A stretch of 64,000 nucleotides of DNA, taken from the NCBI RefSeq assembly GCF_040451425.1, contig NZ_CP144374.1, positions 1,528,501 to 1,592,500 on the forward strand, written 5' to 3'. The notes below the pieces were generated by a model. The model worked only from the letters and a program-made list of their open reading frames with translations. It made no database searches and had not been told where the DNA came from. This document shows positions 41,156 to 50,314 of the stretch, in pieces. Each line of letters begins with the position of its first letter. Position 1 is the stretch's first letter. The DNA is from Thermodesulfovibrio sp. 3462-1. GTDB taxonomy: Bacteria; Nitrospirota; Thermodesulfovibrionia; Thermodesulfovibrionales; Thermodesulfovibrionaceae. Both the position numbers and the translations under genes were made by a program.

Positions 41156-41344
41156 AATCTACTTGAAATACCATTCGTTACAGGTTCCTTTTCGCACCCA
41201 CAAGGGATGCAAGGACAACACGGTGTCGAGAAAAAGGTAAAAACTCCTTTTGAGAGAGTTCTTGAACGAAAGGATGTAGCAGAAGAAATAAAAGAGGAAT
41301 TAAATATGAATAGATTTTTATGTGAGGCAATAAGTCCCTTTTAA
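41156..41344 (+). pseudogene. Truncated reading frame abutting the degenerate CRISPR repeat
   Basis: Sixty-two open codons without a credible start read ...VTGSFSHPQGMQGQHG..., then TPFERVLERKDVAEEIKEEL and FLCEAISPF, ending at a TAA inside the truncated repeat. The amino-acid make-up is protein-like (amphipathic helix near the end), but I recognise no family. Best read as the 3' remnant of a foreign or deleted gene joined to the broken end of the CRISPR array. Confidence 0.35.
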
Positions 41345-41363
41345 ATGAGGTCAAGTTTCCTAC
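41335..41363 (-). repeat. Terminal, 3'-truncated CRISPR repeat
   Basis: Twenty-nine bases are identical to positions 8-36 (plus-strand view) of the 36-nt repeats at 42367-42552, from TCCC to TTTCCTAC. On the minus (crRNA) strand this is the repeat's 5' 29 nt with its 3' end, including the handle, lost. Loss at the 3' end is normal for the last repeat of an array. It lies 1,003 bp from the next repeat instead of the usual 38-40. Confidence 0.9.
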
Positions 41364-42094
41364 TTCTCATCAGAGACCTCTTTGATAAACCCACGGGTCT
41401 TTGGTCCAAACTCTTTTTCAAACCAAGCTTTTATTTCAGGCTCAAGCTTGATCTCTGAAAAAATGAAACTTGCAAAAATTGCAGATAAAAAAGGATATTC
41501 ATCAGAAATTTTAAAAGGATCAAGAGGAGCCTGCTCTTTACCACCTAAAGTTATACGATATTGGGTTATTGGCCAGTGTTTCTCAAGTGAAACAAATGGG
41601 CATCTAACAACAACTGTTTGATTAAACAGGTCGCCTTCACCTTCAAGAAAACACACTGGGGCAGTAGGAGGAACCTTTTTTACTAAGTCCGCCTGCTTTG
41701 GATTGCTAACTCTCCGAATGTTAAGTCCTTTTCCTAAGTAATGTAAAGCCCACGAATAACGTATTCCTTTTTCTTTTGAAGGATCGTAGATTACAAGTGT
41801 TAAGCCTGTTGTCTTTTTCACTTCGTCTAAGTCAAAAGCAGGCACAATGAAACATCCTAAAGCTGCCATTTGTTCTTCTTTTGCTCTTAGCTTGAAGAGA
41901 TCAACAAAAAGAGCTTTGTCCTTTTCAAGATCAAAAGTGGTTCTCCCTGCTATCTGTTGTCTCATGGCATCTCTCATTAGCACTATCTCCTTAAACAGGG
42001 CATTACAATTAGTTTGCTCTTCAGTAGCAAAAGCAGTACAGGTAAAACTAAACAGAACTGCTAATAAGCATACAATTTTTACCACTGATTTCAA
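41360..42094 (-). CDS. Exported hypothetical protein inside the CRISPR array interval
   Basis: A 244-residue protein starting at TTG with a strong AAAGGAGG site 9 nt upstream. Residues 1-23 are a clear signal peptide (VVKIVCLLAVLFSFTCTAFA). The mature part has three Cys and the phrases FIVPAFDLDEVKKTTGLTLV and CPFVSLEKHWPITQYRI; no family recognised. Its last codon and TAG stop are formed by the 5' end of the degenerate CRISPR repeat, so the natural C-terminus may be missing. It follows a dsbC-like fragment by 30 bp, suggesting a periplasmic redox or conjugation-linked role (inference). Confidence 0.7.
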   Translation of the reverse strand: MKSVVKIVCLLAVLFSFTCTAFATEEQTNCNALFKEIVLMRDAMRQQIAGRTTFDLEKDKALFVDLFKLRAKEEQMAALGCFIVPAFDLDEVKKTTGLTLVIYDPSKEKGIRYSWALHYLGKGLNIRRVSNPKQADLVKKVPPTAPVCFLEGEGDLFNQTVVVRCPFVSLEKHWPITQYRITLGGKEQAPLDPFKISDEYPFLSAIFASFIFSEIKLEPEIKAWFEKEFGPKTRGFIKEVSDEK

Positions 42095-42366
42095 CTGTTT
42101 TAACCTCCTTTCCTTAATTTTATGCTACTTTGACTCCTTTGATTGTAGTCCAGACAAAGCTTCCTGTATCCGAAGAATATCAGCTCCCTGGATAACTTTG
42201 CCTTCTATTATGAAGAATGGGGTGCCTCTAACTCCAAGATTTCTTGCTATTTCACTGCTTTTTTGAAGAATTTTGTCTACTTTGCTTTTACATTCCTGGG
42301 TAACCTTGATAGGTTTGGTATCAAGTTTTCCCGTGTAAGCATCATCCAGTGTCTTTGCTGGGTTTT
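41364..42366 (-). other. 1,003-bp gene-bearing interval between CRISPR repeats
   Basis: This segment fills the place of a spacer between the full repeat at 42367-42402 and the truncated terminal repeat at 41335-41363, both in the same direction. It starts inside a dsbC-like gene and ends inside or at the end of the exported-protein gene. No inverted terminal repeats, target-site duplication or transposase is visible. Transcription from the array promoter would read straight into it in the sense direction of both genes. Confidence 0.8.
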
Positions 42367-42373
42367 GTCGCAA
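42125..42373 (-). pseudogene. C-terminal fragment of a DsbC-like thiol:disulfide protein
   Basis: About 80 codons, the first ones lying in the CRISPR repeat. NPAKTLDDAYTGKL, a Cys in QECKSKVD, and NLGVRGTPFFIIEGKVIQGA match the last half of the DsbC/DsbG thioredoxin domain, including the cis-Pro GTP motif. The dimerisation domain and the CxxC active site, which should come before, are absent: the repeat replaces them. The only start is a TTG within the repeat. Not a working enzyme as it stands. Confidence 0.75.
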
Positions 42374-42552
42374 TCCCTTTTAAATGAGGTCAAGTTTCCT
42401 ACTTAAGTTAACAAAATTGATTCGGTTCCTCCTCCTCCACGAGTCGCAATCCCTTTTAAATGAGGTCAAGTTTCCTACGTAATTCTGGATCATGAGCATT
42501 TAGAAAATTCGTTCGGGTCGCAATCCCTTTTAAATGAGGTCAAGTTTCCTAT
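42367..42552 (-). CRISPR. Short CRISPR array: three 36-nt repeats, two spacers
   Basis: Full repeats at 42367-42402, 42443-42478 and 42517-42552, in plus-strand view GTCGCAATCC ... TTTCCTAC; the third has a single C-to-T change at its last base. Spacers are 40 nt (42403-42442) and 38 nt (42479-42516). The crRNA strand is inferred to be minus: repeats then end in ATTGCGAC, a typical 8-nt 5' handle, a promoter lies on that strand at 42618-42647, and the truncated repeat is at the far end. A type III-A csm operon lies upstream on the same strand. Confidence 0.95.
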
Positions 42553-42617
42553 TTTCAATATTTTCAGCTCTTGTTTAAATTTAATCCAGACTTGTCAAAG
42601 ACCAAAATTTTTTATAA

Positions 42618-42647
42618 ATTAAAGCACAAATTAATAAAAAAAGTCAA
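42618..42647 (-). promoter_or_regulatory. CRISPR leader promoter
   Basis: On the minus strand: -35 TTGACT (42642-42647), 18-nt spacer, extended -10 TGcTTTAAT (hexamer 42618-42623). Transcription should begin near 42611, about 59 nt before the first repeat. The surrounding 42553-42701 is A/T-rich as expected for a leader. The block closely resembles the promoter before the cas operon at 52491-52521. Confidence 0.65.
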
Positions 42648-42701
42648 TCTTTAGCATTATCGATAGGAGCTAAAACCATCTTTAACAACGAGAAAAGACA
42701 A

Positions 42702-42926
42702 TTATTTAGAATTGCTCATATAAATTCCATTCCTTCTGAGTCTCTTTTCCAATACCCACGAATGAAAGAGAGATTCATCTTTCAAATTTTTAAGTTGTTG
42801 TGGTGTCAGAACGCAATAAAAAACAGAGTATTGAAGATGTAGTCCCTTGCCTTTCATAAATCTGTATATTCTGGCAAGCCTTTTTTCGTCTGCAATGTCA
42901 TAACATACAAGATAAGCTGCTTTCAT
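42702..42926 (-). CDS. cas2: Cas2, short and divergent at the C-terminus
   Basis: A 74-residue Cas2. The N-terminal ferredoxin-like half is good: AAYLVCYDIADEKRLARIYR with the conserved Asp, then GLHLQYSVFYCVLTPQQLKN. The usual last strands (acidic DDV-IY type and a C-terminal Cas1-contacting tail) are replaced by EKRLRRNGIYMSNSK, and the protein is about 15-20 residues short. It overlaps the cas1 relic as ATGA. Integration partner activity is doubtful because the only Cas1 here is broken. Confidence 0.8.
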   Translation of the reverse strand: MKAAYLVCYDIADEKRLARIYRFMKGKGLHLQYSVFYCVLTPQQLKNLKDESLFHSWVLEKRLRRNGIYMSNSK

Positions 42927-43495
42927 TTTCTTAAATCCTTCATAATTTCAAAAAACTCATCAATAACAGTTTCAACTAATTGAGAAATATTTTGCCTTCT
43001 TGATTCAAATCTGTCAATAATGCTTTTTATGTTTTCATTTGAAAGTTCGTTATCTTCAATCTTTACACTATTAGAGTGGAAAAACTTTATTGTTTGAAAA
43101 TCTACTTCTGGTTCAAAAATCAATGAAAAATCAAGTAAAAAGCCAAAATTGACTCTCCGGTTGATTATTCCAAAATGAGGGTCTAATCCAGCATGAAGCA
43201 TTCTTCCTAAAAGTATCGCTCTAATAAAGTTTTCAATTATGTCATGGATAATGTTCCAATGCGGGTGAGCCTGAATAAACTTATTTATGACAAATTGATA
43301 ATTTCCTTCACCAATTTCATCGGGGATATTGAATCTCTGGAATATTTCTCTTAAAACTTGAATTTGCATCATGGTTCTTCTTGTCTGAAGCCATTTTTTA
43401 TATCTCCTTAGAGTTCCTATGCTGTATGATTTCAAAAAATATCTAATCTGTGCAAGCCTTCGTTCATCAGTGATGTCATAAGCAATGATAAAAAG
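42923..43495 (-). pseudogene. In-frame relic: Cas2 N-terminus joined to Cas1 C-terminus
   Basis: One open frame. Its first part (43412-43495) reads FIIAYDITDERRLAQIRYF then LKSYSIGT, a clear Cas2 N-terminus; no start codon exists upstream, only TAA at 43496-43498, though a TTG at 43435 could start a 170-residue product. The rest resembles the Cas1 C-terminal domain: LLGRMLHAGLDPHFGIINRR and FLLDFSLIFEPEVDF. The Cas1 N-terminal domain and catalytic Glu are gone, and the catalytic His (GFLH) is Asn (GIIN); only the Asp of LLDF remains. Almost surely unable to integrate spacers. Confidence 0.7.
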
Positions 43496-43543: not shown

Positions 43544-43577
43544 TATAAAGGAGCACTGAATATAAAGGAGCACTGAA
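43544..43577. repeat. Perfect 17-bp tandem duplication
   Basis: TATAAAGGAGCACTGAA occurs twice head to tail (43544-43560, 43561-43577) in the 246-bp region between cas6 and the cas2-cas1 relic. It does not resemble the CRISPR repeat. Nothing else recognisable lies between 43578 and 43681. Confidence 0.85.
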
Positions 43578-43681: not shown

Positions 43682-44584
43682 TTAAAGTTTTATTTGATGG
43701 TTAACTATTTCATATTTGCCTAAGCCAAAGCTCGTTCCTTTACCTACATGGAGAATTTCACAAGCTTTAAGAAATGGGATAAATGGAGTGATGTCTCCTT
43801 CATAGGTAATTTCTCCAACTACTCCACCAAGTTTCATTCTGGTGTCCTGCCTGCTTGAGTAACGCTCCCAGTCATACCAACGTGTGTTGTCATCTAATAT
43901 TTTGACTTTTTCTGCTTTTTCAATCAATGAGTTTACATCAACCTGTAAAGGTTCTTTTTTACAATGAAAATAATACAATAATGAAATTCTTCTTAGAATT
44001 GACCGAATAAGAACATGAAAATCAAGTTGATTGACAAGTGAACGATTATATTTTATCCTGATAGGAGTAAGAATATTTAAAGACAATTTTGTAAAATTTT
44101 GCTCTAAATTGACAGAATTTAATGATATTGTCTCTAAATTAGATGATGATATGTTGGAAATGATAAATTTTCCCTTAGCTTTACCAATGCCTACCTTGCC
44201 AAGTTCTTTAATTGTAACAACAAAGTATGGTAAATACTCTATTGCTTTTCCAATAAGGATTATTTTAAATTTAAATTCTTCTGCTGGCTGGTATAATTTT
44301 TTCTTGTTTAAGGGTGGTTCAAAGACAAAGGGATGAGGCACTTTTTCATATTTATGCATGTTTAAAAAATTTGCTGTAGTATCAGAAACAGTTTCAAAAA
44401 CATAGGCATAAATACACTTTGTTTTAATGGGGCAGTCTATACATTGCTGTCTTTTAAGAACGCATGTAATTTGTCTGAGAATATTTCCAAAACCTCCTCT
44501 AAAAGCAGAGCCTTTAAAATCTGGCAAATTTATTTCTGTCTCAGCTTTCAGTGTAAACTCAACAATTTTATAGTGTATCTGCAT
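43682..44584 (-). CDS. cas6: CRISPR endoribonuclease Cas6
   Basis: A 300-residue RAMP protein that cuts pre-crRNA within repeats. The N-terminal FKGSAFRGGFGNILRQITC and the Cys cluster CVLKRQQCIDCPIKTKCIYA are typical of the Cas6 (PF10040-type) group, and the C-terminus ends with the G-rich loop HVGKGTSFGLGKYEI. The catalytic His cannot be fixed from sequence alone. It overlaps csm5 by 17 bp and is the last interference-side gene before the adaptation relics. Confidence 0.85.
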   Translation of the reverse strand: MQIHYKIVEFTLKAETEINLPDFKGSAFRGGFGNILRQITCVLKRQQCIDCPIKTKCIYAYVFETVSDTTANFLNMHKYEKVPHPFVFEPPLNKKKLYQPAEEFKFKIILIGKAIEYLPYFVVTIKELGKVGIGKAKGKFIISNISSSNLETISLNSVNLEQNFTKLSLNILTPIRIKYNRSLVNQLDFHVLIRSILRRISLLYYFHCKKEPLQVDVNSLIEKAEKVKILDDNTRWYDWERYSSRQDTRMKLGGVVGEITYEGDITPFIPFLKACEILHVGKGTSFGLGKYEIVNHQIKL

Positions 44585-45668
44585 TTACTACCTCAAGCAT
44601 AACCCATCCAAAAGGTATTGCTTGACTAAGATTAGCTGGTTTTTTGTTCTGAGAGGCAAGCCAGATGGTTGTCGGTGTTTTATCCCATATTGAGCCTTTT
44701 GCTGTTCTTATCTTTATCTTTCTTACACTTTCTATTGTAACAGCCTCTGCACCTGAGTGTTTCCCGATGCGAATTAGAAAATATTTGATTTTTAATTCAT
44801 TTTTAAATTGCTCTATAAGAGGCCGTCTAAAACCTTTATTTTTTCTCAAATCAACTTCCCTATTAAAAATCTCGGCGTAATGGGCATGAACTTTGGTAAG
44901 AAGAGATTTAAAGTCAAAAGGCTTTTTTATATCAGAATTTTCTATCAAACTGTCTAATTTTACAGTGCCCTTAAATATACTTCCCTCAGGAATGACTTCT
45001 ATAGGAATAGAAAGGGTTGAACGAATGTTGTCTTTCAATTTGTTCACATTTATTTGATATATCACTTTTGTTTTTACTTGTCCTTCAGGTTCCAAATCTG
45101 AAATTTTTAAGAGTCTAAAAGGATCTGTTGACATTTGACCTTCAAGAATTTTCGCCTCCAGTTGCTCAGGATTCCTGGGATCTGCATTTTTTATTAAATT
45201 CTCTTTATCTGGAGACTCTGCAAGCGTTTTATCAAGATAGCCAGTTCTTAAAGAGCCTTTTAAAGAACTTCCAGGAATTATGGGAGTTTGTGTGTAGGGA
45301 TTGAAAAAAGTTCTTGGTATCTCAAACTCATTGAATTTTTTTAAAATTTCTTTTTCATCGTTCAGTTGCTTTACTTCTCTGTATCTTTCAGCTAATTCTT
45401 TAGGAATGGAAATAATTCGTCCTTTTACTTTTTCCTTAACTTTTGAATAAAATCTATACAATTGCACAAGACAGGCAACTGTGTCTTTTTCAGATATATT
45501 TTCAAATTCCTTCCATTCTTTATCATTAAGAGTTTTTATAAATTGCCATAAATCAAAATGAATCATTATGCTTTTGTCAACATCTATGACAAATTCTGTA
45601 GGAGTATAGCACTCATTACATCCAATGTGAACTGGACTTAAAATATGAAGCTTTATCTCATAAAGCAT
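44568..45668 (-). CDS. csm5: Type III-A Csm5 RAMP protein
   Basis: A 366-residue Cas7-like cap of the Csm complex, which holds the 3' part of the crRNA. LHILSPVHIGCNECYTPTEF at the start and PIIPGSSLKGSLRTGYLDK near residue 128 are the family motifs. Assigned as Csm5 by length, divergence from csm3 and position after csm4. Overlaps csm4 by 11 bp. Confidence 0.9.
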   Translation of the reverse strand: MLYEIKLHILSPVHIGCNECYTPTEFVIDVDKSIMIHFDLWQFIKTLNDKEWKEFENISEKDTVACLVQLYRFYSKVKEKVKGRIISIPKELAERYREVKQLNDEKEILKKFNEFEIPRTFFNPYTQTPIIPGSSLKGSLRTGYLDKTLAESPDKENLIKNADPRNPEQLEAKILEGQMSTDPFRLLKISDLEPEGQVKTKVIYQINVNKLKDNIRSTLSIPIEVIPEGSIFKGTVKLDSLIENSDIKKPFDFKSLLTKVHAHYAEIFNREVDLRKNKGFRRPLIEQFKNELKIKYFLIRIGKHSGAEAVTIESVRKIKIRTAKGSIWDKTPTTIWLASQNKKPANLSQAIPFGWVMLEVVNADTL

Positions 45669-46584
45669 CTTGCACCTCCACAGGTAAAACTAAGGAGTAT
45701 CCCTGTGTTACTGCTTCAGGGATAGCTTTTGAAAGATTCTGTATGCTCATTCCAATGTAAGGTTTTTTAATATCTTCGTTTGGAATTAATACTGCTGCTT
45801 CATCAGCAAATACAACAGGATTTTTAAATGGATTTTTTAATTTTGCAAAAATGCTTCCGAAACGACCAAATCTAATAAAAGGGGTGAAATAAATATCTTT
45901 TACTTCTTCTTTCTTTGGTACTGAAGGAGAAAGGGTATACAAAGCATTATAATTACCGGAGCTTGCCAAAAGTTGAATTTCTTTGATATCCTCTACTTCA
46001 AATTTACCATATCCAGCTGTTGCATCTTTGCCATACCCGTAATTTCCTACTCTTTTAAGTGCTTCTTTAAATGATTCAACTGCTATATCCTGTCTCAGCC
46101 CTATAAATATGGCAAGTTTTGTCTTGAAATAAATTTTATCAACTGTGTAAGGAGTAAATGGAGCTTCACCTGTTGTGCCTGTTAATCTGTTTATGGTGCA
46201 TCTTATTTGGCTGTCTTCTTCAATAAAATTTATCTTCTCGTATGTAATCTCATTCAGGGGCTTAAGGGGAATTTCAAAGGCAAAGTAATTTTTGCTTTTT
46301 AATTCCTTCCTCTTTTGTATGAATTCTTTCTCTGAAATTTTAAATAGCTTATACAATGGCATTGATGGACGTTTCAGATAAATTTTTTCCTTCACTACAG
46401 GAAAAGCTGAAGAAACAACAATAAAAGGATTTTCTTCATAGTCTTTAAGAAGCTCCTGAAGAGATTTACCAAAAAGTTGAGAATCCTCAAAGGCTTGCCA
46501 GCAAAGGTGTCCAAAAAGAGTATCTCCCTTTATAGGACTTCCAAAACCTGTCAAAGGCTTTATCTTTACAATATAGGTTTTCAA
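45658..46584 (-). CDS. csm4: Type III-A Csm4 RAMP protein
   Basis: A 308-residue Cas5-like subunit that binds the crRNA 5' handle and contacts Cas10. PLTGFGSPIKGDTLFGHLCW at the N-terminus and GYGKDATAGYGKFEVEDIKE in the middle are diagnostic; a C-terminal LSKAIPEAVTQGYSLVLPV closes it. Lies 2 bp after csm3. Confidence 0.92.
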   Translation of the reverse strand: MKTYIVKIKPLTGFGSPIKGDTLFGHLCWQAFEDSQLFGKSLQELLKDYEENPFIVVSSAFPVVKEKIYLKRPSMPLYKLFKISEKEFIQKRKELKSKNYFAFEIPLKPLNEITYEKINFIEEDSQIRCTINRLTGTTGEAPFTPYTVDKIYFKTKLAIFIGLRQDIAVESFKEALKRVGNYGYGKDATAGYGKFEVEDIKEIQLLASSGNYNALYTLSPSVPKKEEVKDIYFTPFIRFGRFGSIFAKLKNPFKNPVVFADEAAVLIPNEDIKKPYIGMSIQNLSKAIPEAVTQGYSLVLPVEVQDAL

Positions 46585-46586
46585 AG

Positions 46587-47321
46587 TTACCCCCAGAGCT
46601 TTAAAGAGTTGAATTTATTTTTTAAGGCTTCATCATCAAATTGAAACTCAATTTTTCCATATCCACGACTTCCAGAGCCTCCAAGAGAGTCAAGCTCAAG
46701 GAGTTTAAGTCCTTTTAATAAATAGTCTTCAAAAAGTTTTTCATCTTCATCATCCAGAACTTTAAAATATACTTCAAAGTCAAATACAGTTCCTGCTGGA
46801 ACTCTTTCAATAAATCTTGGATCCTTTGCTGTTCCTGTGATACGATTTATTCTGTTTTCAGATTTTACTTCAATATAGCTCCAATGATTTTGTTCAGCTT
46901 GTTTTTTGAAATCTTCATTTAATCTACAATCACTAAATGAGACTCTTGTTGGTCCAATTTCTATAATCAAGTTCTCATCAGTTTCTCCTGCACCTGCACC
47001 AAATACTTTTAGTATATTTTTGATGTGATTTTTTATCTCACCATCTGCATTTTTAAGCATCTTTGGAGTTGCCAGCCCACCTGAATTCTTAAAATCTTCT
47101 GATTTTGCTGCTTCTTGAACAATGCCATAGTAATACTCCAGAAGACTTCTTATTTTTCCTTTTAGAGATGAACCTGGAATATATGGCTCTTGTGTAAAGG
47201 GGTGTTTTATAACAGGGTTGTCTGTTCCACCTATTTGCATTTCCATGTTGCCTGAACCTATGTGCAATCCTGTTTTGATGATTATTTTACCTTTAATTGC
47301 TTTAATTTCTTTTAGTTTCAT
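46587..47321 (-). CDS. csm3: Type III-A Csm3 backbone RNase subunit
   Basis: A 244-residue Cas7-type subunit that forms the filament and cuts target RNA every 6 nt. TGLHIGSGNMEMQIGGTDNP then VIKHP holds the Asp expected to be catalytic, followed by YIPGSSLKGKIRSLLEYYYG. The RITGTAKDPRFIERVPAGT loop and a final LGGSGSRGYGKIEF are family features. So target-RNA cutting appears intact. Confidence 0.93.
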   Translation of the reverse strand: MKLKEIKAIKGKIIIKTGLHIGSGNMEMQIGGTDNPVIKHPFTQEPYIPGSSLKGKIRSLLEYYYGIVQEAAKSEDFKNSGGLATPKMLKNADGEIKNHIKNILKVFGAGAGETDENLIIEIGPTRVSFSDCRLNEDFKKQAEQNHWSYIEVKSENRINRITGTAKDPRFIERVPAGTVFDFEVYFKVLDDEDEKLFEDYLLKGLKLLELDSLGGSGSRGYGKIEFQFDDEALKNKFNSLKLWG

Positions 47322-47333
47322 CAGTTGCCTCCT

Positions 47334-47738
47334 TTATTTCATTTTTTCGTCATAATACCTGTAAAAACCCATAAAAGCTTCAAAAAACTTAACAAAGACA
47401 TCAAAATCTTTTTTACTCCGAATTTGATTTATACATTCCTTAAGAAACATTCTAAATTCTTCTGTAATAAGATTTCTGCCTTCAGCATAGTAGGCTTTTG
47501 CATTAAGAATTTTAATGTAGGGAAGCATTTTCTGAAATTCTTCATCATTTTTTATTCTTCCATGAAAAGTTAAAACTTCATCATAAAATTTCCTTAATTG
47601 AGAAATCTTGTTTTTATCTTTCTTTTTCTTACCACTTTCTTTTATGTCTTTTGCCCATTTATCAGCTATTTCAGAAAACAGCTCTGGATTTACAATTTCT
47701 CTGGCTTCATCTTCCCAGAATTTGATTTTGTTGTTCAT
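47334..47738 (-). CDS. csm2: Type III-A Csm2 small subunit
   Basis: A 134-residue all-helical protein. The ATG at 47738 has AAGGAGG 6 nt upstream and overlaps csm1, so it is preferred over an in-frame ATG ten codons earlier. ISQLRKFYDEVLTFHGRIKN and the C-terminal FVKFFEAFMGFYRYY match Csm2. It forms the inner filament of the complex. Confidence 0.88.
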   Translation of the reverse strand: MNNKIKFWEDEAREIVNPELFSEIADKWAKDIKESGKKKKDKNKISQLRKFYDEVLTFHGRIKNDEEFQKMLPYIKILNAKAYYAEGRNLITEEFRMFLKECINQIRSKKDFDVFVKFFEAFMGFYRYYDEKMK

Positions 47739-50314
47739 GCTTTCCTCCTTATATAAATTGTATGCCATAAAGGAATCCTAAAGGATTCCTTGTATGTCTC
47801 TATCCAGTTTGCAAGTTTGGATAAAATTTCTTCTGTAATTTTGATTCTTTCTTCTTTGTTTTTTCCCTTTCCAATATTTCTTATAGCAAAGTAATAGAGT
47901 TTAGCTCTCCAGGTTAAAGGATTCAGATTTTTGTGAATTGACTGCTCCTTCAGTATTTTTTCTGCTTCCTCTGCAAGCTCTCTAATTTCATTCAATTTAT
48001 ATATGAATGAATTGGTTATAATTTCCTTGCTAAGCCAGCTGTCTAATTCTTTTATAATCTCGTTAAATTCTTTTAATTTATTCCACTCCACTGGACAATT
48101 AAAGATTGTTATTCTGTTTTTCCCGCTGTATTTTGATTGCTCTAATGCCTTTTCTGAAATCTCAGCCATTGTCATCACAGAAGTTTCAGGCTTTGTAATA
48201 TATACTCCAGCTGAAAGCGTAATTTCGCTGTTTTCACAGCAGTATTTGTAAAAATCTTCAGAAATTCTCATAGAAAATCTGATTATTTCCTTCCATGGAG
48301 CAATAAGAAAAAGATCATCTCCACCTGCAAAAATTGTGTATATATTTTTAAACTCTGTTTTACATAGATAAGGCAAATAAAGAGTAAAAAAGAGATTAAG
48401 TTGCCGTGAAAGTGTGGCATATCTTGAAAAGGTTCTTTTCTCTGGTCTTAATCCTTTTGCAAATATTGTTCCAAGATTATCAATGTCTGCTTTGAAAACG
48501 CCAAGAGCATCAACTCCAGCAAATCCAGAGGGAGTCTCCTGCAATGAGAGTTTTGCAATATGATGAAAGCTAAGAATTGATTGTTTCTGAATAGCTTCCC
48601 TTGTTTCCTTGTTATCTTGCTCTGAGTCTTTATAAGTAAGTTTCTCAATCTCTTTTTCATACTCCGGTGTAAATTTTGGAACATAGCCATTTATCAGTTT
48701 GATCGAAGCAAAATTTTCAAGGATGCTACTGTCTTTCCAGAGAGAGTTAATATTCCAATAATGAACTATTTTATTTTGTCTTAAAAGTTCTGAAAGTTTA
48801 CCTGATACAAAGCTTACCTGATATTTATCAAAAATTGGCACCTTAAGTTTTTCAGGAAGCGCTGCATCAGCTGTAGCTATTGTAACAATATCTTTTTTAA
48901 CAAGATTTTCGCCAATTTTTACATGATCGTAACAAATATCACAGAGGTATTCTTCTTTTATTTTATTTTCATGATTTGCTGCTCTACGATTGCAAAGAGG
49001 GCATACCCCAGCATCTGAAAATTTATCAAGATATTTCTCTGTATATTTTGTTCCTCCGTATTGGATAAGATCTATTTTCTTGTATTTGCGTTCCTCTGAA
49101 GCTCTGCCTATCTCCCTTAAAAGTTTTTCAAGACTGTCTTTACTGCAAATAAAATCCTCTGGTGATGCTTCCACCCAGCTAAAACCAATACTTACCTCTC
49201 CATAAAAGTTTTCCATAAGCCAATGATTTATTTCATACTCTGTTGATTTTAATGCATCAATATGTTTTTTCGTGTTTGGAGCCAGAATTTTAAATTTTCC
49301 TGCTGCATTTGTAACAACTGATGTAAAAGGTAACCCGAGTCTGTCAAGTAAAAAATCTGCAGCAAGCTCACTGAGTAAAGAAACATAAAAGGATCTGCCT
49401 CTCAGCATTTTGGCTGCATATTTAGCTGTAGAACCACCTTCTGAAAATATAAAATCCTGAATGCCGTAAAAATTTCCTTCAATTAAAAGAAACTTCTTTT
49501 CATCCGTCTTTTCTATTGAATTTTTATCCATTGAATCTGTTAACAGATGATAAAGATACATTGAAACAGCAAATGCAGAGGTAAGTCTGCCATGGTCATA
49601 AAGAGAAATGTCTGATATAATTTCCTCAAATCTACCATCAGAGTGTTTTAGTGTTGCCGATGGGATTGAAGTGGTAAAAACAAAAAGTAATGAATCAAAA
49701 TGTTCCATCCAGAGTTTAAGACATTCTTTATGAGGAAGACTTTTAAAGACTTGAATAAATTTTTGATAAAGCTCACCATAAGCCAGTTGCTGAGAATCCT
49801 GCTTTTTTACAGGAAAGATGTTTAATGGAGAAATTTCTTTCAGAGGATAGGAAAAAATAAAGTTTTCAGGTTTATTTTCCTTCCATTTTTCAGCAACTGA
49901 TATATCTTCAAGTATCGGGAATAATGGAATTTCCTTTGCTTTTTTTGCAATCCATTTTTCTTCTTCAAATTCTTTTCTTTCAACTCCGCTGCTAAGGCAA
50001 TCTGCTTCATGAATTATTAGTTGTTCAGGAGAGTCAGAGTCTGGTTTGTGATGTTTTGCAGCAAGATTTATAAAAGAATCCCTTGAAGAGGCATATTCTG
50101 TAATTTCTCGAGGAAAATATTTAACCATTTCATCAATAAAGTAAGCTGTGTAAAGGGCATGTTTGTGAGTGTATTGCCAATTAGTTTTTGGTTGATACAG
50201 GGATTGATTGCCATCTATGTATTCAGATGGGATATCTATTCCAGCTCTTTCCATAAATTTTCCAATATCATGAAGAAGTCCTGCCAATGCAATTTTTAAA
50301 ACTTTAATATCCAT
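47735..50314 (-). CDS. csm1: Cas10/Csm1, type III-A signature subunit
   Basis: An 859-residue protein. The N-terminal HD nuclease domain has AGLLHDIGKFMERAG and AAKHHKPDS. A zinc finger has Cys pairs CPLC and CDIC near residues 430-455. The cyclase palm has GVFKADIDNLGTIFAKGL and FAGGDDLFLIAPW near residue 660, the intact GGDD motif. Both DNA cleavage and cyclic oligoadenylate synthesis are therefore expected. A GGGAG ribosome site and a separate promoter-like element (50371-50398) precede it. Confidence 0.96.
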   Translation of the reverse strand: MDIKVLKIALAGLLHDIGKFMERAGIDIPSEYIDGNQSLYQPKTNWQYTHKHALYTAYFIDEMVKYFPREITEYASSRDSFINLAAKHHKPDSDSPEQLIIHEADCLSSGVERKEFEEEKWIAKKAKEIPLFPILEDISVAEKWKENKPENFIFSYPLKEISPLNIFPVKKQDSQQLAYGELYQKFIQVFKSLPHKECLKLWMEHFDSLLFVFTTSIPSATLKHSDGRFEEIISDISLYDHGRLTSAFAVSMYLYHLLTDSMDKNSIEKTDEKKFLLIEGNFYGIQDFIFSEGGSTAKYAAKMLRGRSFYVSLLSELAADFLLDRLGLPFTSVVTNAAGKFKILAPNTKKHIDALKSTEYEINHWLMENFYGEVSIGFSWVEASPEDFICSKDSLEKLLREIGRASEERKYKKIDLIQYGGTKYTEKYLDKFSDAGVCPLCNRRAANHENKIKEEYLCDICYDHVKIGENLVKKDIVTIATADAALPEKLKVPIFDKYQVSFVSGKLSELLRQNKIVHYWNINSLWKDSSILENFASIKLINGYVPKFTPEYEKEIEKLTYKDSEQDNKETREAIQKQSILSFHHIAKLSLQETPSGFAGVDALGVFKADIDNLGTIFAKGLRPEKRTFSRYATLSRQLNLFFTLYLPYLCKTEFKNIYTIFAGGDDLFLIAPWKEIIRFSMRISEDFYKYCCENSEITLSAGVYITKPETSVMTMAEISEKALEQSKYSGKNRITIFNCPVEWNKLKEFNEIIKELDSWLSKEIITNSFIYKLNEIRELAEEAEKILKEQSIHKNLNPLTWRAKLYYFAIRNIGKGKNKEERIKITEEILSKLANWIETYKESFRIPLWHTIYIRRKA

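Follow-up and report, generated by a model that had tools for sequence, protein, structure and literature searches.

The canonical CRISPR integrase is assembled from four Cas1 and two Cas2 subunits, and the known Cas1-Cas2 complexes are, to our knowledge, each built from the products of one cas1 gene and one cas2 gene. When all Cas1 subunits come from one gene, the orientation of spacer insertion and the role of the non-catalytic Cas1 subunit are hard to test. The locus described here lies in a window of 64,000 nucleotides from the genome of Thermodesulfovibrio sp. 3462-1 and retains the remains of a module that is intact in relatives as cas2a-cas1-cas1x-cas2b. This module has in common with the canonical integrase the Cas1 fold, the Cas2 fold and the adjacency to csm genes and an array, but differs from it in holding two genes each for Cas1 and Cas2.

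A solved complex with both active and inactive Cas1 subunits is described in PMC12259127. That a diverged second Cas1 has already been noticed by profile makers is evident from the existence of the PADLOC model PDLC01185, described as “Cas1, diverged variant, second in the loci,” and Cas1x does take second place in its locus. This model is the best match for five of the eight second Cas1 proteins tested, all five of them proteobacterial (2e-29 for L153), whereas the Nitrospirota-type Cas1x proteins show weak similarity to it (5.5e-10 to 2.8e-3 among those listed), score better against general Cas1 profiles and have it as best match in none of the cases tested. The model's description is silent on paired Cas2 genes and on function. 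One contig is given as cas2-cas1-cas1-RT-csm3..., without comment, in PMC11742911, and our search of the open-access literature, which took in PMC12669027 and PMC3150331, found no description of the four-gene module and no account of paired Cas2 genes or of the function of a second Cas1.

The analysis of the minus strand from 43495 to 42923 reveals a frame that runs from stop to stop over 190 aa; on the plus strand, the first frame over this stretch is closed. The open frame called here by an earlier, sequence-only reading is real. Comparison with the closest intact relative (genome G012, locus L063) divides the frame into a cas2a remnant at 43420..43495 on the minus strand (LFIIAYDITDERRLAQIRYFLKS..., about the first 27 residues, recognized from the cas2a alignment and from 80% nucleotide identity to L063 10344-10269), a deletion junction at 43410..43419, and a cas1x tail of about 161 codons at 42923..43409, again on the minus strand, which encodes a Cas1-like C-terminal domain (GLDPHFGIIN...LLDF). 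The proposal that a Cas2 start had been fused in frame to a Cas1 tail is confirmed by homology to the G012 cas2a and cas1x genes, but the front part needs correction: an 11-nt gap relative to L063 removes the cas2a ATG, the first ATG, GTG or TTG of the frame would yield a product of just 170 aa, and residues 2-24 match the Pfam Cas2 family (PF09827) weakly and below its cut-off (E 0.0094). The Pfam Cas1 family (PF01867) has no match to the frame at E 0.1, and the Cas1 kinship of the tail is drawn instead from its identity to the intact G012 Cas1x protein, which amounts to 78.3% over 161 codons and is far beyond chance. At the DNA level, window positions 43409-42771 correspond to the second Cas1 and second cas2 genes of G012 (L063 8838-8201; 82.5% identity over 640 nt), and the intervening L063 10268-8839, about 1,430 bp that comprise the rest of cas2a, the whole of cas1 and the first ~103 codons of cas1x, is missing from the window. 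A perfect 17-nt tandem duplication (TATAAAGGAGCACTGAA) is also present at 43544-43577, between cas6 and the cas2a remnant.

The short cas2 that had been noted behind the fusion is indeed there, and it is itself truncated. This gene, cas2b, lies at 42702..42926 on the minus strand and is identified by a match to PF09827 over the cut-off, by alignment and by DNA comparison; its frame encodes 74 aa compared with 91 aa in the intact gene, and homology ends near residue 50, after which an internal deletion and a frameshift are seen relative to G012. The PF09827 match covers residues 12-58 of the stop-to-stop translation and just profile positions 3-49 of 74, which falls short of a full-length Cas2 domain. 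A single deletion of about 1.43 kb, with one end in cas2a and the other in cas1x, took out the entire catalytic cas1, and the comparison with G012 shows that the cas2a start codon and the end of cas2b disappeared in events apart from it. Taken together, the deletion, the lost ATG and the broken cas2b amount to at least three lesions in the module.

We consider the frame at 42923-43495 to be, very probably, a non-functional and recent deletion relic of a cas2a-cas1-cas1x-cas2b adaptation module. A functional product, such as a dominant-negative or repurposed Cas1x C-terminal domain carrying a Cas2 tag, was weighed against this. Its 190 codons are open, and the dN/dS of the tail against G012 (0.157) is comparable to that of the intact neighbors cas6 (0.169), csm3 (0.129), csm4 (0.134) and cas10 (0.173), with window-only changes at 15 of 161 positions in the tail and 27 of 292 in cas6; such values suggest either that decay is recent or that the tail is still constrained, and a recent deletion would predict the same. 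The structure model (pLDDT 82 overall) likewise gives the helical core with fair confidence, including a confident helical tail, but leaves the Cas2 start disordered (pLDDT 38 over residues 1-10). With the cas2a start codon absent, cas2b likewise broken, and the fusion confined to this one genome while the 20 other relative loci fetched are all intact, a functional fusion appears very improbable.

The origin of the relic is further illuminated by these relatives. A protein search with the fusion tail in 101 related genomes found it in 22, the present genome included, and 20 of the 21 other tail-bearing loci were fetched at length. All 20 carry cas2a-cas1-cas1x-cas2b in identical order, with typical sizes of ~93 aa for cas2a, ~317 aa for Cas1, ~270 aa for Cas1x and ~92 aa for cas2b, and the module often adjoins cas6 and csm genes; in Thermodesulfovibrio and its relatives it serves type III-A (csm) systems. 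The gene order in relatives and the G012 junction bear out the suggestion that an ancestral set with two cas2 genes and Cas1 genes had collapsed by deletion.

As a seed for a scan of a genome collection of 84,980 species, the fusion tail alone found no relatives, whereas a Cas2a seed, used as an alignment, succeeded: 156 relatives were confirmed and 80 of them were kept. By record title these 80 loci come from Nitrospirota, “Deltaproteobacteria,” Aminicenantes, Acidobacteriota and several classes of Proteobacteria, although most are metagenome bins whose taxon labels may be wrong. The strict order cas2a-cas1-cas1x-cas2b is found in 64 of the 80, and all four genes in 66, the two additional loci (L154 and L155) having open frames that overlap out of order. 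Outside the strict count there are also six loci cut by contig ends (L120, L124, L127, L135, L141 and L147) and L161, where the start of cas1x was seen by eye only. Since Cas2a seeding selects loci that bear cas2a, co-occurrence across 295 genomes of the phylum offers a less biased check: Cas1x and Cas2a are each present in 35 genomes and occur together in 33, counts that retain a weak match in G134 (51 bits) and one in G231 (46 bits) that may be a canonical Cas1. The two genomes with Cas1x only are the present one and one with a weak match.

Two further arrangements outside the strict 64 were observed. Five loci from Nitrospira metagenome-assembled genomes (L133, L137, L138, L139 and L142) have a cas2a-like gene with no cas1 nearby, and in L137 this gene is preceded by a 451-aa frame. 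The loci of a Thiobacillus metagenome-assembled genome (L144) and of Cardiobacterium hominis (L157) read cas2a-cas1-cas2b with no room for cas1x, and the two-Cas2 state can therefore stand without Cas1x, which is not required by every two-Cas2 module.

The two Cas1 proteins of the module are distinct. A tree of 132 rows places Cas1 and Cas1x on opposite sides of a branch with support of 100; the tree was built by a quick method, the remoter Cas1x proteins sit on long branches, and the Cas1/Cas1x split alone is used here. The predicted structure of an intact Cas1x (L083, from Thermodesulfovibrio sp. N1; pLDDT 92.2) has the full Cas1 fold, aligning with 4wj0_A over 264 residues at Z 24.6 and rmsd 3.1 and with 4xtk_B also at Z 24.6, the alignments to solved Cas1 covering 263-264 residues, and four of five intact Cas1x proteins tested exceed the PF01867 cut-off (39.3-58.3 bits), the fifth, from L082, scoring 19.1 bits against a cut-off of 22.3. 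Glu, His and Asp are all present in the catalytic Cas1 of every one of the 66 loci that have all four genes (66 of 66), whereas all three are found together in only 5 of 51 Nitrospirota-type Cas1x proteins, a count made on 51 of the 66 loci after the 15 with a profile score below 120 bits had been left out. Among these 51, E occupies the Glu site in 10 and D the Asp site in 50; the His site has H in 26 and something else in 25 (N in 13, Y in 4, others, and one gap), and a Glu stands one helical turn from the Glu site in 40. Most of the 15 remoter proteins, which are chiefly proteobacterial, have no active-site motif recognizable by eye, L146 being an exception.

These patterns alter how the fusion tail is to be understood. 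It had been taken for the end of a catalytic Cas1 whose His had disappeared in a change from GFLH to GIIN, but the tail belongs to Cas1x, a family mostly without the active site, and while the GIIN is real, it was not lost in this lineage; it is inherited, as the intact cas1x of G012 also reads GIIN. Nor did the deletion take away the region of the catalytic Glu, which had been called missing: the Glu-site stretch (...IPDEIGEGNYQ...) is present and has D at the aligned Glu position, a position where E is in any case found in just the 10 of 51 Cas1x proteins mentioned above.

A loss of catalytic activity in Cas1x is likely on these residues, and short of proven because the Asp persists in 50 of 51 and the nearby Glu in 40 of 51. 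The same residues could be read to mean that Cas1x is still active, its active site modified, in which case the intact module would encode two catalytic integrases, and this reading could also draw on the 26 conserved His sites and the five complete triads. We regard it as unlikely, given the rarity of E at the Glu site, the 25 proteins without the His, the lack of a recognizable motif in most of the remoter Cas1x proteins beside an invariant neighboring Cas1, and the faster divergence of Cas1x (mean distance 0.647, compared with 0.448 for Cas1). The distribution of conservation within Cas1x fits a structural role, though it is no proof of one: mean pairwise identity is 0.445 in the N-terminal and 0.318 in the C-terminal domain of Cas1x, a better-kept N-terminal domain to a degree not matched by Cas1 (0.589 and 0.539).

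Considering gene order, divergence and co-variation together, we find it rather probable that the intact modules encode a heteromeric integrase that is asymmetric from the start. In such an assembly, Cas1 would carry out catalysis, Cas1x would stand in each Cas1 dimer where the non-catalytic subunit otherwise sits, and the bridge would consist of Cas2a and Cas2b, so that with one active Cas1, one inactive Cas1 and two Cas2 proteins each gene would determine the role of its product. Among the four proteins Cas2a shows the highest conservation (mean distance 0.329), and the alignment reveals a conserved C-terminal tail particular to it, both of which would be anticipated for a component whose partners are fixed. 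The distance matrices of all four proteins correlate across the 51 loci (Mantel r 0.66-0.80, with 0 of 999 permutations as high), the Cas1-Cas1x pair giving r 0.80 (again 0 of 999). The paralogues are nevertheless distinct and each is conserved, and some loci hold two Cas2 genes without Cas1x, both of which would suit a separate machine in which Cas1x and Cas2b act outside the Cas1-Cas2a integrase, for example in prespacer trimming or selection. The strict 1:1:1:1 order in 64 of 80 loci and the correlation among all four proteins fit one complex better, without being decisive, and a separate machine seems to us rather doubtful. If the integrase is indeed heteromeric, each Cas1 role and each Cas2 half could be mutated independently of the others.

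The type III-A effector beside the relic is preserved. On the minus strand, cas6 (43682..44584; PF10040 over cut-off) lies next to open frames for csm5-csm4-csm3-csm2-cas10/csm1 at 44568..50314, which exceed the cut-offs of five NCBIfam models (TIGR01899, TIGR01903, TIGR02582, TIGR01870 and TIGR02578) and qualify the locus as type III-A. The earlier reading, in which csm genes stay intact next to an adaptation module that is dead, is supported. At 42367..42556, on the minus strand, there is a CRISPR mini-array of three repeats (36-nt repeat, 74-76 nt period), and its leader is placed at 42516..42701 on the same strand. The suggested search for arrays with the same repeat was productive: the repeat core has 38 copies in the genome at up to 3 mismatches, of which 32 form an array at C1:327477-329832, 4 lie in the window and 2 stand alone. 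The leader portion at 42516-42649 (134 bp, first repeat included) is 97% identical to C1:329800-329932. The small size of the mini-array had been attributed to a system that cannot learn, an explanation that finds no support, given this large array and its nearly identical leader. The common repeat and leader give the III-A effector a spacer store in trans, and the effector probably still works with the spacers of both arrays.

The sequence-only reading had also proposed looking for a second cas1-cas2 set acting in trans, and this was only half rewarded. The genome does hold one PF01867 Cas1, of type I-B (C1:593337-594176), but its single neighboring cas2 gene is interrupted: the three Cas2 matches in the genome are the window cas2b and two pieces of this one I-B gene. 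The interruption consists of an exact 30-nt direct duplication around 37 unrelated nt (L039 8051-8147, equal to C1:593050-593146), and the five closest I-B cas2 relatives (L164-L168) are uninterrupted. The neighboring I-B array has 168 repeats of 30 nt, the nearest ending at 592722, 328 bp from the insert, and spacers of 35-42 nt, most commonly 37 (63 of 161); the duplication thus has the length of the array repeat and the insert that of the commonest spacer. We take the interruption to be, probably, the integration of a spacer by the I-B Cas1-Cas2 into the gene for its own Cas2, with 30 nt duplicated as a repeat would be. Replication slippage or repair could have produced the additional 67 nt instead, and it would be in keeping with this that no source for the 37-nt insert was found in the genome itself, in viral contigs (exact 33-mers) or in phage records. 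The double match to the dimensions of an array 328 bp away speaks against it, as does the 64-kb window, in which no exact direct repeat of at least 25 nt at 60-80 nt spacing was found outside the mini-array, and we hold slippage or repair to be improbable. At L039 9186-17708 there is a mixed locus in which I-B cas7, cas5, cas3, cas4 and cas1 come immediately after genes for III-D-like Csx19, Csx7 and a TIGR03986 RAMP protein; no cas8 was seen there among the listed frames.

Spacer integration away from the array also occurs in living E. coli, and self-damage by the integrase as a cost of adaptation is known mainly from assays. In vitro, off-target spacer integration is reported for S. thermophilus Cas1-Cas2 in PMC6895254, and off-target integration by a V-C Cas1 is cited in PMC13034035; no paper on neo-CRISPR with Cas1-Cas2 was found in the open-access literature. 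The I-B insert resembles these events in lying outside the array and differs from them in being apparently natural and in falling in the machine's own cas2. If truly a spacer, it would constitute a natural case of an integrase disabling itself, and thus a cost of adaptation.

No intact Cas2 for either the III-A or the I-B system was found in the genome, and adaptation is for this reason probably dead in both. The encompassing picture, to which we would give about an even chance, is that relatives possess an obligately heteromeric integrase, composed of a catalytic Cas1, an eroded Cas1x and a Cas2a-Cas2b heterodimer, in which insertion orientation is possibly built into the proteins, and that the present genome lost this machine by deletion and its I-B machine by self-integration into cas2, leaving a cell that would remember but could not learn.

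Signs of a possible rearrangement were also noticed near the repeats. A lone partial copy of the mini-array repeat lies 1 kb away at 41328..41364 on the minus strand, and the stretch 41328-42373 comprises this copy, a frame of 244 aa that looks secreted, and a DsbA-like fragment that breaks off at the first mini-array repeat. For the genes of 41360-42373, no match was found in the G012 locus, near the lone repeats or next to the large array, and the stretch possibly reflects a rearrangement with breakpoints in repeats. The two repeat cores that stand alone, at C1:1290688 and C1:1700059 (L037 and L038), have one mismatch each and lie far from the arrays.
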